Positions 16,564-22,195 of a stretch of DNA of 64,000 nt are shown in pieces (positions within the stretch are counted from its first letter, which is position 1; the number at the start of each line of letters is the position of its first letter). The position numbers and the translations under genes are program-made. Origin of the DNA: Bifidobacterium coryneforme (lineage in GTDB: Bacteria > Actinomycetota > Actinomycetes > Actinomycetales > Bifidobacteriaceae); the NCBI RefSeq assembly GCF_000737865.1, contig NZ_CP007287.1, positions 35,982 to 99,981 of the forward strand, read 5' to 3'. The notes beneath the pieces were generated by a model. It was not told where the DNA came from, did no database searches, and saw only the letters and a list, made by a program, of their open reading frames with translations.

Positions 16564-18350
16564 GCCGACAGAGGACTTCCAAGCAGAAGGGAACCGGATC
16601 GTTGAGCGGTACCAGTACAAGTGCCATGTCCAAGGAGGAGGTCGGCCCCCTGGCCGGCGGCGGCTCTCTGAGCATCATGCGTCGAATGGCCGGACTGATG
16701 AGGCCCCTGGCAGCCACCGAAGGTAAGGCCATAGGATGCGGGTCGCTCGGCCACCTGTGCTCTGTGTGGTGCGTCATGGCCGCGACGGCGGCCCTGATAG
16801 GTCTGAGTGGACTGGCCGGAAACGGCAGCTGGCTGAGCTGGACCTGGATTGCCTGGGCGGTGGTGTCCATTGTGGCCGGGGTGCTCAAGGGGGTTATGGC
16901 CTACGGCGAGCAGTACTATAACCATGAAATGGCGTTCAGTGTCCTGCGCGACATCCGTGTGACCGTTTTCGATAAGATGCGGACTCTGGCCCCGGCCAAG
17001 TTGTCGCGGCGTGGGAGGGGCAACATGGTCACCGTCCTGACCGATGACATCGAGGCTCTGGAGATTTTCTACGCCCATACCCTTTCACCCATCGCCATTG
17101 CCGTGATCACCGCCGTGGTCAACCTGGTCACGCTGACTGTCTTGTCCGGGTGGATGGGACTGATGGCCCTGGTTTCCTACCTGATCGTAGGCCTGGTCAT
17201 CCCCCTGCTCAGCGCCTCGCCCACCTTCCGCGTGGCCATGGCGGAGCGGACAGCCCAGGGGCGCCTGCATAGCCTTCTTCTGGAGACCCTGGACGGGCGG
17301 CGTGAGCTGGTGGCTCTGGGTGCCGCCGATCAGGTCAGGCAGAACCTGGATGAGGCCACCGGTGACATGCTGGAATCTCGGCGCCGCACCTCACGCAACA
17401 CCCTCTACAACGACCTGGCCACCCAGGTGGCCACCCTCGTCTGCATGGCCGCTTTCACCCTGGCCGTCTGCGCGCTCGCAGGCAGAGGAGCGATTGGTCT
17501 GGCCCCGGCCATGATTGGTCTGGTTGGTTTCCTCAGTTCCTTCGGTCCCCTGATTCCTGTGGCCAGACTGGGTTCGGGCCTGCAGCCCACCATCGCTGCC
17601 GCCCGAAGGGTCTTCGGCCTGCTGGACGAGGAGCCTGAGGTTGAAGAGGTGGCTGAAGGGTCCAGACTGCCTGCCTATTCAGGCACCCATGCCGGTGGGC
17701 TCTCCTTCGGTTATGCCACCGGGTCTGACCAGGATGGGAGCGGTTCCCTGGTTCTGCATGACCTGGAACTGGACATCAAGCCAGGGGACCTGGTCGGGGT
17801 CCAGGGTGAGAACGGGGCCGGGAAGACCACGCTCATCGACCTGCTCATGCGCTTCCGAGACAGGAATGCTGGCGACCTGACCGTCTCCGGCCTGTCCATC
17901 GAGACCATCAACACCGCTGATCTGCGTGCCCGACAGACCCTGGTGAGCCAGGATACCTATATATTCAGTGAAACCCTGGCCGACAACATCGCCATAGCCC
18001 GACCTGGTGCCAGCCGGGAGGAGATTGCCGAGGCCGCCAGCCAGGCCTGCCTTGATGATCTGATTGACCAGCTGCCCAAGGGACTGGACCAGGTTCTGAC
18101 CGGCAACGGATCCGAACTCTCCGAAGGGCAGAAGCAGCGGGTGGCCCTGGCCCGCGCCTTCCTGAGCCAGGCCTCCCTGCTCCTGCTGGACGAACCGACC
18201 AGCAACATGGATGCCCTCCTGGAGGGCAAGGTGCTCAAATCCCTGATTGATCAACAGGGTGACAGGGCCTACCTGATCGTCTCCCACCGGCCCTCGGTCC
18301 TGGCCCAGGTCAATCGGCTGTTGTCGCTAGATGGTGGAAGATTTGTATGA
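16560..18350 (+). CDS. ABC exporter half-transporter 2 (fused membrane and ATPase domains)
   Basis: About 596 residues with the same layout: a Ser/Thr/Gly-rich N-terminus of about 45 residues, six membrane helices, then an ABC ATPase with Walker A GENGAGKTT, Walker B LLLLDEPTSNMD and H-loop SHR. The signature is LSEGQ instead of LSGGQ, so one of the two composite ATP sites of the heterodimer may be less active, as in many heterodimeric exporters. Translation is coupled to the first half by the ATGA overlap at 16560-16563. This is the last gene before the AT-rich island. Confidence 0.85.
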   Translation: MSRQRTSKQKGTGSLSGTSTSAMSKEEVGPLAGGGSLSIMRRMAGLMRPLAATEGKAIGCGSLGHLCSVWCVMAATAALIGLSGLAGNGSWLSWTWIAWAVVSIVAGVLKGVMAYGEQYYNHEMAFSVLRDIRVTVFDKMRTLAPAKLSRRGRGNMVTVLTDDIEALEIFYAHTLSPIAIAVITAVVNLVTLTVLSGWMGLMALVSYLIVGLVIPLLSASPTFRVAMAERTAQGRLHSLLLETLDGRRELVALGAADQVRQNLDEATGDMLESRRRTSRNTLYNDLATQVATLVCMAAFTLAVCALAGRGAIGLAPAMIGLVGFLSSFGPLIPVARLGSGLQPTIAAARRVFGLLDEEPEVEEVAEGSRLPAYSGTHAGGLSFGYATGSDQDGSGSLVLHDLELDIKPGDLVGVQGENGAGKTTLIDLLMRFRDRNAGDLTVSGLSIETINTADLRARQTLVSQDTYIFSETLADNIAIARPGASREEIAEAASQACLDDLIDQLPKGLDQVLTGNGSELSEGQKQRVALARAFLSQASLLLLDEPTSNMDALLEGKVLKSLIDQQGDRAYLIVSHRPSVLAQVNRLLSLDGGRFV

Positions 18351-18907
18351 ATCTTTGTAGCTAATAGGCTGATTCTGATGCAATCTAGTGTTTCTGATTA
18401 CGTCGATTGTTGCGCATTCGCATCTTGTCTATCGGCTGGTCAATTATAAATTTGGAATCTATCATTTTCTCTTTTCAATTAGTCATGTTGTTGGATAATC
18501 GGATTGGGTTCACAGTTTCAGCCTATCTGTGTTATGGAAATAGAAGAATAGTGATTCGGGACTGTTTAAAATTAGCTTAGAAAATTAAAACAGCCGCAGT
18601 TCAAATTGTCATAGCAGAGTCGTCCAAGTGGAGTTTCAGCAGTCTATGTAGACCGGTTCAATCAGTCTTTCATTAGTCTCGTTATCGATCTTCTCGACTG
18701 CTTGTAGGTTCAGGAAGTACAAATGAACGGGCAAAGCGCAGTGATTCACTTGTAAAGTACTAGAACAAGGGTTGAGAACGCCGAATATCGTATATAGTGA
18801 TAGCAGATTTGTGTTGCTCAAGCTATAAACAGTAATAGGGAAGACCATGTAATGTAGTTGCAGCCCGTGTAGTCGGGATTTTCCAGGAGCTGCATATTAT
18901 ATGTAGT
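18351..18907. other. AT-rich intergenic stretch at the left edge of the island
   Basis: About 550 bases, visibly richer in A and T than the genes to the left. No confident gene. On the minus strand at 18636-18848 there is a 70-codon frame whose last 25 residues (including EKIDNETNERLIEPVYI) look like real protein, while its first half does not. It may be the tail of a lost gene, but I recognise no family. A weak inverted repeat (CTGTTT 18562-18567, AAACAG 18588-18593) lies further left. Confidence 0.4.
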
Positions 18908-19732
18908 TTACTCCCGTTTTTTGCACTTTTGATTGTAATCACTTTGGATTTTGCTACCAAAGCAATAGATTTCTGCCAGGGTTAACGACTGAATTTTAAA
19001 TAAGTCATTTTCCAACTCTTCGAGAGTTAAATTAGTATCGCTCATCATTCCGCCGTGAACTGCCTCGTTTCTGTTCTGAATCAAAGATTCAAGGAAATCG
19101 GTGAATAAAGATGACTGTTTTGCAGATTCTGACTCATGACGGTTTTCATTAGTTTTTAATTCATGACGGTTTTCATTAATTTGGTAGGGGAATGAAACTG
19201 TCATCCTAGACAAGTAAGCAGTCTCTTTCTTAATAAAATTATCTGAATCTTCAAAAGAATTTTTGAATACAATCTCAAAATCAGAATCATATAGTGTCCT
19301 ATTGATGTCTCTGACACTAAAATGCTCACAGCATTGTTTTACTGTGTCTGACGTTAAATTGCTAGAGTGGTTAAGAAAGTCATCTTTGATTTTGAGGTTT
19401 ACTTCTTGGCGGAGTAGTTCTTTTGTTATTTTAGTAATTTGCTGCCCTTTGACATCTTGGTTTCCAAGCAGTGTATATTTGACATATGCTCGTACAAGCG
19501 GCTCTGGAAGGGAAACATAGTCACTGGCCTCATTGATGTCACTTAGTATCCCTTTTAGTACGCCATAAAAACCACCCTCGAAATGCGAGCATAGCATCAA
19601 AAAGGCCGCTTTAAGATAAATCGGTTTTTTGCGTGAAGGAGTTCGCTTGTCTTTAACTAATCTGATCATTTCAGAGAGCTCTTTCCAGCGCTCTTCAAGA
19701 ACTATGATCTCGTCATGAAGATTACTGCTCAT
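18908..19732 (-). CDS. HEPN-domain protein (MAE_28990/MAE_18760-like putative RNase)
   Basis: 274 residues, mostly helical and polar. Near the C-terminus is the HEPN ribonuclease motif R-N-E-A-V-H (R221, H226; R-x4-H), and near the N-terminus a helix with SHFEGGF (49-55), as in the MAE_28990/MAE_18760 HEPN families known from prokaryotic conflict systems. HEPN proteins with this motif are typically metal-independent RNases used as toxins or in abortive infection. The start overlaps the end of the DUF262 gene by 11 bases, so the two are coupled. Residues about 186-200 hold a tandem N-E-N-R-H-E duplication coming from an 18-base direct repeat. Base composition is far more AT-rich than in flanking core genes. 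Confidence 0.8.
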   Translation of the reverse strand: MSSNLHDEIIVLEERWKELSEMIRLVKDKRTPSRKKPIYLKAAFLMLCSHFEGGFYGVLKGILSDINEASDYVSLPEPLVRAYVKYTLLGNQDVKGQQITKITKELLRQEVNLKIKDDFLNHSSNLTSDTVKQCCEHFSVRDINRTLYDSDFEIVFKNSFEDSDNFIKKETAYLSRMTVSFPYQINENRHELKTNENRHESESAKQSSLFTDFLESLIQNRNEAVHGGMMSDTNLTLEELENDLFKIQSLTLAEIYCFGSKIQSDYNQKCKKRE

Positions 19733-20831
19733 CGATTATGGCCTGCTCAGCTAATTGGGTTCGAGTTTTCAGGGCATTTGCATCTGTAATTGATCCACTA
19801 GTCGCTGAAATAAATTCTTCGGCGTCAAAGAGTTTGGCGAACTCTGCGCGTGCATTTTTCTTATAGTGCCTATTGGAGAGGCGCATGTCGTCATCGCTTA
19901 TGATCACCGCGTCGAATACAGCGGCATTAAAGCGCGATGCAAATTCTCGTTTTGAGCCAGAAGGATTCTTCTTCGCAAATGCATCTTCACCTAGGTTCTC
20001 TTTTATGCGATGCATTGCGGATGTAAACTGCACTCGAAAGCTGCTTATTTCCTTTTCGTCGGCATATTGATGCTTCTTCATGAAATTCGAAAGGAAATTC
20101 GACATCAGGGGGGTGTAATCACGATAACGCCCGTTCGTAAGTGCAAAAAAGCGCAGGATGAATTCGATATCGTCCATCTTGCTGATCCTTTTTTGCGAGA
20201 AATGCGTCAGTCCAATAAACGTAGGATCCTTGGCTAGCTCTTGTAGCAGTTTATTAAATGGGCCACCATATGTTGAATTCCTCAATTCTTGAGAAGTAAG
20301 TTGCACAGAACCCGTGTTCAATCTTTCGAATACATCGAATTTAACTGTTTCGTCAACAGTTGAATCGATACGTAAGCAGTTTATTGTCCGATCCCTAATT
20401 CGTCGTTTCAGGAAATCGGGTAGCTGGCTAAATTTCCGGCCATTTAGTTCTAAAATAATCCCTAAATCAGTAAGAGCAAATTTATCCTCAAAATAGTTCT
20501 TGATCGATGTCAATCTCTGCTGGCCATCGATAACTGAGTAATATCCATCTCCCGCGGTTTCATCAGAATCAATATCTACGTCATTCGACAAGTAAATAAA
20601 AGGAATGGGAATATTAAGTATCAGGCTCTCAATTAGTCTTGACGACTTCCCTTCGTCCCAACGGTATTTACGCTGATATTCAGGGTTTAGTTTAATTTTG
20701 TTGTCATCTATTTGCTTTATAAGCGTATTTATATCGTAGTTGACCTGTTGGGTTCGAATAGTATGCTCTTTCGTTAATTGCTTTAACTTATCGATGTTTG
20801 TGCTTTGAAACATAGATCTAGCATATAACAC
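19722..20831 (-). CDS. DUF262 (GmrSD N-terminal-like) protein
   Basis: 369 residues. The DUF262 hallmark D-G-Q-Q-R is at about residues 102-106, preceded by PEYQRKYRW and followed by a second family motif FERLNTG near 170. DUF262 is a ParB/Srx-like fold used in GmrSD, BrxU and SspE, where the DGQQR motif is linked to nucleotide binding or hydrolysis. The C-terminal DUF1524 HNH nuclease of GmrSD is missing: the last 150 residues are helical without an H-N-H pattern. The effector is thus probably the HEPN protein encoded next. Start at 20831 is supported by AGGAA about 10 bases upstream; ATG at 20813 is an alternative. AT-rich, likely acquired. Confidence 0.85.
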   Translation of the reverse strand: MLYARSMFQSTNIDKLKQLTKEHTIRTQQVNYDINTLIKQIDDNKIKLNPEYQRKYRWDEGKSSRLIESLILNIPIPFIYLSNDVDIDSDETAGDGYYSVIDGQQRLTSIKNYFEDKFALTDLGIILELNGRKFSQLPDFLKRRIRDRTINCLRIDSTVDETVKFDVFERLNTGSVQLTSQELRNSTYGGPFNKLLQELAKDPTFIGLTHFSQKRISKMDDIEFILRFFALTNGRYRDYTPLMSNFLSNFMKKHQYADEKEISSFRVQFTSAMHRIKENLGEDAFAKKNPSGSKREFASRFNAAVFDAVIISDDDMRLSNRHYKKNARAEFAKLFDAEEFISATSGSITDANALKTRTQLAEQAIIDEQ

Positions 20832-21083
20832 TGTTTCCTATATGATGTGTAACGATTATTTCTTTAATTTACAGACTACGTTGGCGCGAATTGTCACGTA
20901 AGTTTATATATAGATTCGAGAAAGTGTATATGCTGTTGGTGAAGGCGCTTAAACGAACTGGATGCGTTCTAGATGTGTCGGTTAACCTAACCACAGGTGT
21001 CAAGGAGAATCTGCCGTCGAGGCTTCTTTCATAGGCATTACTTGTTTATGTTTATCCGTCGCCTGTTTTAGTTAGCGAGAGTT

Positions 21084-21494
21084 TTATAACTGTCCTGACG
21101 CGATACTCACGATTAACTGTAAAGACCTGACAACCCGATTGATTGCCTCTTTGATTCCTGCGCCGGGGCGCTTCAGCTTGATTTGCACCCTCGGCAGGCC
21201 GTCGATGAGAATCGTCATATCGTAACTGTTCCTATAGACGGCATTGCCCTTGTGCGTCTTGTCCATCGTTGCCTGATAGATGTTTCGGTAGATGTCGGAG
21301 CTGAAGAAATCCAGATACACGGTCTTACCGTTATTCGGCGTTGGCACGTACTTATCGCGGATGATTTTCTCGGACTCGTAAACGCTATGGTTGTTGACAT
21401 GAATCATCACACGTCTGTACTCAGCATCTGAGAACGTTGCCTTGCTCTTCGCTTCAGCCGGGTTCTCGGCATCGTATTCGGAGGCGTGCGTCGT
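21084..21494 (-). pseudogene. type I restriction subunit R (HsdR) N-terminal remnant
   Basis: The frame from 21494 to the stop at 21084 encodes the start of an HsdR subunit: a segment with FSDAEYRRVMIHVNNHSVYE, then TVYLDFFSSD, and the nuclease-domain motifs Y-D-M-T-I-L-I-D-G-L-P and Q-I-K-L-K-R-P-G. In active HsdR these are the PD-(D/E)xK region. After EAIN the sequence departs from the family and stops at about residue 137. The remaining part of the roughly 1000-residue enzyme, and hsdM and hsdS, are absent nearby. No start codon precedes the coding-like part: the codon before it is TAG (21495-21497). I read it as a decayed fragment. Confidence 0.75.
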
Positions 21495-21689
21495 CTATTC
21501 GCTTTCTTCCTGTTTACCATTCGTGGTTCTAGCGAACGCTTTGGTTTCCTTGCGGTCGTGCTTCTGGCGTCGGCTTCGAGCACGTTGAGCATAGCCATCA
21601 TATCTTGCTTCTTGGCCGTATGCAGCCTCCTTTTTACTTCCTTGCAATAGATACTCACTATCTAACAAATAACTAATGAGTATCTCATC
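21495..21689 (-). pseudogene. unidentified gene tail preceding the HsdR remnant
   Basis: A 64-codon open frame ends at TAG 21495-21497 in the same frame as the HsdR remnant. It reads as plausible protein (for example EAAYGQEARYDGYAQRARSR and KQEESE at the end), but it lacks a clear start. I do not recognise the family. A single-base change can explain the junction: ATAGACGACG here, against ATGACGACG, would give a normal 4-base stop/start overlap between this gene and hsdR. That is inference. Confidence 0.35.
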
Positions 21690-21697
21690 TCAGTCTT

Positions 21698-22014
21698 GTT
21701 CTACTTCAGCTTTACCCGTCCGAACGGCATACCGGCGGGCGTTCTCACCTTGGCGCACATCGCGCGAACGTCTTGGCCGCGGGGCCACGGCCGTCCACGG
21801 AGATGGCGGAGCGCTTGAGTCTTGTGCCTGCGGTTGCCGCGGGCTCCGGCAGTAGACGATGTTGCGCGTCCAAGGGCTGGAAATAGCTTAAACGATAATA
21901 CGGGCTTTCTAGTCCATAAAAGCGGAAAAGGAGTGCCTACATTGCGCTCTCTAAATCGATAAATAAGTCCAAGCTCGTTCCTGAAGAAGATCAGTCCGAC
22001 GCTTCATATTTTTG
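21698..22014. other. decayed DNA between restriction remnant and tRNA-Ala
   Basis: About 320 bases without an intact gene. On the minus strand there are protein-like pieces in two frames: one at about 21761-21935 (containing ESPYYRLSYFQPLDAQHR), and one at 21701-21760 starting ATG and ending FGRVKLK. A frameshift between them could join them into one lost gene. I recognise neither piece. The stretch looks like a gene graveyard next to a tRNA. Confidence 0.35.
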
Positions 22015-22087
22015 TGGAGCTAGCCGGGTTCGAACCGGCGACCCTCTGCTTGCAAAGCAGATGCGCTACCAGCTGCGCCATAGCCCC
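22015..22087 (-). tRNA. tRNA-Ala (anticodon TGC)
   Basis: A complete cloverleaf reads from 22087 to 22015: acceptor GGGGCTA pairs with TAGCTCC, D-arm GCGCAGCTGGTAGCGC, anticodon loop TTTGCAA with anticodon TGC, T-arm GCCGGTTCGAACCCGGC, discriminator A at 22015. CCA is not encoded. It lies 34 bases downstream of tRNA-Ile on the same strand and borders the AT-rich island. Confidence 0.95.
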
Positions 22088-22121
22088 GTGATTGGAATGA
22101 ACTTCAAAAAGCAGAAGTGCG

Positions 22122-22195
22122 TGGGCCTGGGAGGACTTGAACCTCCGACCTCATCCTTATCAGGGATGCGCTCTAACCAGCTGAGCTACAGGCCC
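22122..22195 (-). tRNA. tRNA-Ile (anticodon GAT)
   Basis: A complete cloverleaf reads from 22195 to 22122: acceptor GGGCCTG pairs with CAGGCCC, D-arm AGCTCAGCTGGTTAGAGC, anticodon loop CTGATAA with anticodon GAT, T-arm GGAGGTTCAAGTCCTCC, discriminator A. CCA is not encoded. The pair Ile-Ala is in the same order as in many 16S-23S spacers, but here it stands alone. Confidence 0.95.

Follow-up and report, generated by a model that had tools for sequence, protein, structure and literature searches.

The overlapping DUF262 and HEPN genes on the minus strand of the window (the whole 64,000-nucleotide stretch of Bifidobacterium coryneforme DNA that was analysed) probably form a horizontally acquired two-gene anti-phage module, in which an NTP-dependent DUF262 sensor would restrain and then license a HEPN RNase. 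The DUF262 (GmrS/ParB-like) gene was found at 19722..20831 (-) and encodes 369 aa from a GTG codon, an in-frame ATG 18 bases into the ORF being an alternative plausible start (363 aa), followed by the HEPN gene (RiboL-PSP/MAE_28990-like) at 18908..19732 (-), which encodes 274 aa from an ATG codon. The products are a predicted NTP-binding sensor or regulator and a predicted RNase effector, respectively, and the two genes share 11 bases (19722..19732, (-)), an overlap from which we infer translational coupling. The DUF262 protein was found to match Pfam GmrSD_N (DUF262) with an E-value of 1.7e-28, and the HEPN protein was found to match HEPN_RiboL-PSP (E 2.4e-17) and HEPN_MAE_28990 (E 3.3e-8). 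DUF1524/HNH was absent from both proteins and from three neighbouring ORFs in the Pfam scan (for the DUF262 protein, none at E<=1). The G+C content was 0.37-0.43 per kb between 18500 and 21500, as against about 0.60 further out. The first-pass annotation had described an AT-rich, minus-strand pair with this overlap, in which a DUF262 protein with DGQQR and without DUF1524/HNH accompanies a HEPN protein with intact R221 and H226, and this description was borne out by the ORFs found at the same positions, the base composition, the Pfam matches and the motifs given below. The genome is a single contig of 1,755,151 bases, in which DUF262 was matched once. Promoter and terminator scans gave numbers close to chance (7 found vs 7.2 expected and 3 found vs 3.5 expected, respectively), and nothing apart from the tRNAs was found above the Rfam gathering score between 18300 and 22300. 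Compared by sequence with solved structures, the HEPN family had no match (best E 0.35) and the DUF262 protein showed weak similarity to 7p9k only (E 5.9e-4), which we take to be BrxU.

In the DUF262 protein, Q53 and R54 of the QR motif (residues 53-54, codons at 20670..20675, (-)), D102, G103, Q105 and R106 of the DGQQR motif (residues 102-106, codons at 20514..20528, (-)) and F168 and N172 of the FxxxN motif (residues 168-172, codons at 20316..20330, (-)) were found to be invariant in 47 DUF262 proteins. These three motifs are described for GmrSD-type DUF262 domains in the available passages of PMC12137116 and PMC11411939. The HEPN protein was found to contain R221-N-E-A-V-H226 (Rx4H, codons at 19055..19072, (-)), and neither R221 nor H226 varied when 8 or 38 HEPN proteins were aligned. 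Among the 8 diverse proteins (the window HEPN and seven partners at 11-23% identity to it) only the columns N125, R221 and H226 were invariant; the same three were invariant in the 38 close HEPN proteins (window included), together with D65, F156, P182 and K246, and E52, R221 and H226 were conserved at 90% or more when all 80 downstream proteins were taken, also those that are not HEPN. Residues R221, N222 and H226 fit the Rx4-6H pattern in having a polar residue next after R; the pattern is described as a metal-independent RNase motif in the available part of PMC3710099, and the window HEPN was found to combine a HEPN profile match with Rx4-6H, the combination by which the HEPN RNase superfamily is recognised. 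The invariant DUF262 and HEPN residues are the pattern that would be expected from selection on a working NTP pocket and HEPN active site.

Judged from the sequences of its relatives, the pairing of DUF262 with HEPN is not a matter of chance. A HEPN gene was found directly downstream of DUF262 in 76 of the 82 evaluable loci, in a sample of 86 (the best 80 loci of 227 relatives in genome contigs and 6 loci in viral contigs) that leans towards HEPN partners because all three seeds of the three-row query alignment (A3) carry them, and the case that the first-pass annotation had named against itself, homologues usually lying apart, is thus not what these relatives present. Window-only queries found no relatives in genome contigs or viral contigs, whereas A3 did. 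The other four loci (L093, L099, L107, L115) were unevaluable, with contig ends within 160 bases of the DUF262 stop. Pfam accounts for 73 of the 76 HEPN-bearing loci (74 of 80 members matched, window included, the identity of the six members that miss a Pfam HEPN being deduced from the locus readings), and L104, L121 and L123 were counted as HEPN-bearing by our own HEPN profile, L121 weakly. The count also includes L070, L094 and L123, which are broken by frame or stop changes; L076 is cut by a contig end. No HEPN was found downstream in six evaluable loci (L112, L125, L126, L136, L141, L147), of which L125, L136 and L141 are cyanobacterial DUF262 genes with the same core and no HEPN neighbour, L125 and L136 being located near a gyrA-like gene as judged by eye. 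The tabulated gene pairs (L062-L098 and L142-L146, leaving out L093 and L094) were found to contain 36 overlapping pairs out of 40, followed by 3 that abut and 1 with a gap, and the overlap lengths are approximate, the starts having been picked mechanically. The closest plasmid relative, from K. aerogenes, was found to contain a DUF262 44% identical to that of the window and an annotated HEPN gene that overlaps it by 1 base. Two DUF262-HEPN pairs were found on opposite strands within an 11-kb stretch at L070, one HEPN being split by a frame change. In another genome of the same genus (L004), a 181-aa frame containing RNSFVH overlaps and follows a distant DUF262 (33% identical), the two being possibly another DUF262-HEPN pair in the genus.

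A less biased survey with the NsnA profile in 396 Actinomycetota genomes gave matches in 30 genomes at 33 places, and the 20 places examined were the highest-scoring apart from the window. A HEPN partner was recognised by our own profile in 4 of these 20 (L156, L157, L159, L160) and a Menshen-like P-loop ATPase partner in 3 (L152-L154). Directly downstream at L165 and L168 was a small gene with RNxIAH that matches no Pfam family at 0.01, and downstream at L158 was a 207-aa frame with RDPVVH, unmatched by either profile; L155 ends in an HNH-like sequence, and the remaining places examined were unclear or without a partner. The reverse search, with HEPN profile A4 at E<=1e-5 in 385 genomes of the phylum of the seed genome G589 and 276 Actinomycetota genomes, matched 4 genomes, namely that of the window, G589 and two independent weak ones (E 4.3e-7 and 1.8e-6). 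DUF262 was found immediately upstream in all four, two of which are neither window nor seed. The HEPN subfamily is rare (one genome, that of the window, among 276 Actinomycetota and 3 among 385 in the phylum of G589), and the four matched genomes, all with DUF262 upstream, indicate that it is sparse, yet paired with DUF262 wherever found.

The pairwise distances of DUF262 and HEPN were found to be correlated over 78 pairs (Mantel r 0.874, to which shared host ancestry could add), none of 2000 permutations being as high (maximum 0.15), and the 37-row close group gave r 0.858, again with 0 of 2000 permutations as high. The set consisted of the 86 loci minus 19 whose genes were broken, cut, missing or duplicate, plus the window and 10 other loci. 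In the tree of 98 DUF262 rows, which was midpoint-rooted and in which several long branches, including L148, are unsure, the 8 Menshen-type rows were found together (93/55) and the HEPN-partner side was split off at 100/93. The window was grouped with L062 (Propionibacteriaceae, 49% identical) in a 40-row clade (100/100), all with HEPN, which was found to span the eight phyla Actinomycetota, Bacillota, Bacteroidota, Cyanobacteriota, Pseudomonadota, Campylobacterota, Spirochaetota and Verrucomicrobiota.

The pair represents the only sizeable genes of a 2.8-kb low-GC segment (18321..21136, no strand assigned) that has no blastn match in the same-species genome G1133, to which its two flanks are 97% and 95% identical. 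The segment is followed by a type I hsdR remnant (21137..21472, (-)) that shares 84% identity with a 979-aa ORF of G1133, with a 108-aa ORF at 21084-21410 matching HSDR_N (E 1.3e-7), and then by tRNA-Ala and tRNA-Ile (22014-22195), in agreement with the restriction-gene debris and tRNA pair that had been reported beside the module. At this site, G1133 was found to contain ORFs of 407, 524 and 979 aa, by eye HsdS, HsdM and HsdR, and a protein search found no DUF262 relative in G1133. The site was taken from 14 of 26 other matched genus genomes and the ORFs were read in all 14. The cargo was found to vary across these genomes, often with low GC, and further restriction or methyltransferase genes were recognised in it by eye from the translations, as were a TIR-like protein and Abi-like ones. 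The type I-like ORFs of G1133, the hsdR remnant and the varying cargo indicate that the pair has replaced a restriction system, or sits in its ruins, at a variable cargo site. The bounds of the site (18321-22000; L182-L195) are an ABC-transporter gene and tRNA-Ala/Ile. Further cargo in relatives, named by eye, includes type I RM, a Dam-type methylase with a ParB-like protein, and proteins of 1670-1855 aa.

A pair of the same architecture has been studied experimentally. PD-T4-2 consists of DUF262 and a PF18735 HEPN according to the available text of PMC10952713, and in the passages available of Vassallo et al. 2022 (PMC9519451) T4 plaquing rises on its deletion in ECOR65 and it protects K-12. 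The defence-module reading of the first-pass annotation therefore stands as to a conserved pairing of DUF262 with HEPN instead of HNH, at a variable site with restriction genes, and falls as to the pairing being unstudied, since PD-T4-2 has this architecture and protects E. coli from T4. As in PD-T4-2, the window pair has two genes, DUF262 first and HEPN second, in overlapping or abutting order, and its DUF262 was matched by PADLOC PD-T4-2_A (150.4 bits, 1.7e-44), below the score of NsnA (276.5 bits, the best). Unlike in PD-T4-2, the window HEPN has 274 aa against the 168 positions of the PD-T4-2_B profile and gave no match at E<=1 to this or any other PADLOC profile, and the window DUF262 lies in its separate 40-row clade, the placement of the long L148 branch being unsure. 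None of the 80 downstream proteins was matched by the PD-T4-2_B profile at E<=0.001; among genomes, the profile had matches in 2 of 247 from the class of G589 and in none elsewhere (0/149, 0/6 and 0/295). L148 is the one strong match (173 bits), with a 168-aa HEPN that contains Rx4H (RNRAAH) and matches HEPN_RiboL-PSP below the curated cut-off only; the DUF262 and HEPN genes of L148 share 14 bases, and over 243 columns the L148 and window DUF262 proteins are 30% identical. The window-type HEPN was compared with six aligned rows assembled around L148, which comprise PD-T4-2_B-like and further short HEPN partners, and the similarity was weak (66% probability over 76 columns). Given the lack of a PD-T4-2_B match and this weak comparison, the window pair is laid out like PD-T4-2 but is not a member by profile. 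Abortive infection as the mechanism was not found in the literature passages on PD-T4-2.

Menshen shares the DUF262 core. The Menshen-type DUF262 alignment was found to match the window-type DUF262 over 325 columns, the core nearly at full length, and NsnA is the profile that scores the window DUF262 best. The NsnA match does not discriminate, since 8 DUF262s without an adjacent NsnB were scored at 185-277 bits by the same profile. In Menshen, NsnB (OLD-like/DUF3696 ATPase) and NsnC adjoin the DUF262 gene, as in L023 (DUF3696/AAA ATPase and NsnC), whereas no NsnB- or NsnC-like ORF was found between 18350 and 22014, the window HEPN matched neither, and the Menshen-type DUF262s cluster apart from the HEPN-partnered side of the tree. 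Membership of Menshen was rejected because NsnB and NsnC do not adjoin the window pair. GmrSD, BrxU and SspE type IV restriction systems have in common with the window a DUF262 with QR, DGQQR and FxxxN and differ in that the window pair lacks the DUF1524/HNH nuclease, its predicted effector being a separate HEPN protein; GmrSD was rejected because HNH/DUF1524 is absent. HNH-like C-terminal ends were recognised by eye in DUF262 relatives without a HEPN gene (L107, L126, L155) and in the more distant L009 and L016. These tails and the pairing of the same core with NsnB and NsnC support an exchangeable cutting part in DUF262 systems, in line with the earlier proposal that the cutting part had been replaced by another effector. 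It is conceivable, though we put it forward only tentatively, that one DUF262 sensor core is wired to at least three effectors (a HEPN RNase gene, a fused HNH, and an OLD-like ATPase with NsnC) and that the window pair is the RNA-cutting counterpart of modification-dependent restriction, using the same NTP-driven sensing of phage DNA to direct cutting at RNA of the cell or the phage, within a subfamily that crosses phyla and is filed under Menshen by the PADLOC profiles used.

The HEPN family itself had been listed earlier. The 2013 table of Anantharaman et al. (PMC3710099) contains the entry 'Ribo L-PSP-HEPN ... operon with ParB', with the same HEPN family by Pfam name and with DUF262 being ParB-like there; in the part of the paper available, it is a table entry without mechanism or experiment, and the subfamily of the window is not singled out. 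No description of this DUF262-HEPN subfamily was found by a full-text literature search whose scope lay outside most subscription papers. The DUF262-HEPN architecture is thus already known, of which the window appears to represent a divergent, widely scattered subfamily.

From PD-T4-2, we infer a defence role for the window pair; NTP use by DUF262, the RNase activity of HEPN and the direction of control are equally putative. In the module proposed here, DUF262 would bind and hydrolyse NTP through DGQQR and would sense a signal of infection. Foreign or modified DNA is a plausible signal, as judged from GmrSD, BrxU, SspE, TgvAB and GrwAB, where DUF262 and DNA nucleases are used together against DNA that is modified or marked (available text of PMC10952713, PMC12137116 and PMC11411939). 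The co-translated HEPN would be held in check by DUF262 until the signal, upon which DUF262 would license it to cut RNA through R221 and H226, and the RNA cutting would stop phage development and perhaps the cell too. The overlap of the genes and the second position of the predicted RNase would also suit a type II toxin-antitoxin system, with HEPN acting as the toxin, DUF262 acting as a plain antitoxin and the role being mainly insert maintenance or stress response and not phage sensing, and HEPN toxins with nucleotide-using partners exist (HEPN/MNT, in the available part of PMC7641770). We regard this as unlikely, since DUF262 has kept all its NTP-pocket motifs, for which a plain antitoxin would presumably have no use, the DUF262 core is common at nearly full length to Menshen NsnA, whose partners are not HEPN, and an HNH-like tail takes the place of HEPN in some DUF262 relatives.

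Modification-dependent restriction, in which DUF262 would recognise modified phage DNA and HEPN would be an accessory that cuts or blocks DNA, giving direct immunity and no RNA-based arrest, was considered distinctly improbable. Neither window protein has HNH/DUF1524, and PMC3710099 (available part) presents Rx4-6H as the motif of a metal-independent RNase, even though the five systems named above pair DUF262 with DNA nucleases and the L148 pair, a PD-T4-2_B match, was found by eye between hsdS and hsdR. A pair that is decaying or no longer active, left over in a single strain by chance after one acquisition, would agree with G1133 having no DUF262 relative, with the window HEPN matching its own genome only among 99 genomes searched, and with the broken hsdR next door; both frames are intact and the residues invariant across wide divergence are present, which makes this reading very improbable. 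The proposed sensor-and-RNase module would make the pair a direct test of DUF262 as a general NTP-driven sensor that drives RNA as well as DNA cleavage, and DUF262-driven RNA cleavage would, if true, bear on the mechanism of PD-T4-2. The window clade spans eight phyla in the sample, but the DUF262 is its only component that PADLOC names (NsnA scoring best), and the effector is missed, 0 of the 80 downstream proteins scanned being named as the HEPN component of a known system.

Relatives were found to occur on plasmids and phages. With tblastn, the window HEPN alone gave nothing in plasmids or phages at E 0.01, the K. aerogenes HEPN gave its own plasmid only and the L062 HEPN gave nothing in phages, and the K. 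aerogenes pair had no DNA match in E. coli genomes at E 1e-5. The neighbour set consisted of 142 of 149 chosen flanking ORFs from 31 loci of L062-L097, with ORFs over 1500 aa dropped. Among the 25 of 147 Pfam families listed for these ORFs (E<=1e-8) were Eco57I methylase in 5, phage integrase in 5 and N6_Mtase in 3, followed by resolvase, D12 methylase and BsuBI/PstI endonuclease in 2 each and by many housekeeping families, and PADLOC at E<=1e-20 gave type II methylase profiles in up to 5. The control, 40 of 41 window ORFs outside the island and not matched for taxon, contained no restriction profile among the 25 PADLOC profiles listed, with mad3 in 5 and PD-T4-6 in 2. By the methylase, endonuclease, integrase and resolvase matches in their flanking ORFs, some DUF262-HEPN pairs lie near restriction and mobility genes. 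At L143, the pair was found in a viral contig whose flank matches the replication region of a Citrobacter phage at 78%, suggesting carriage of the module by prophages.
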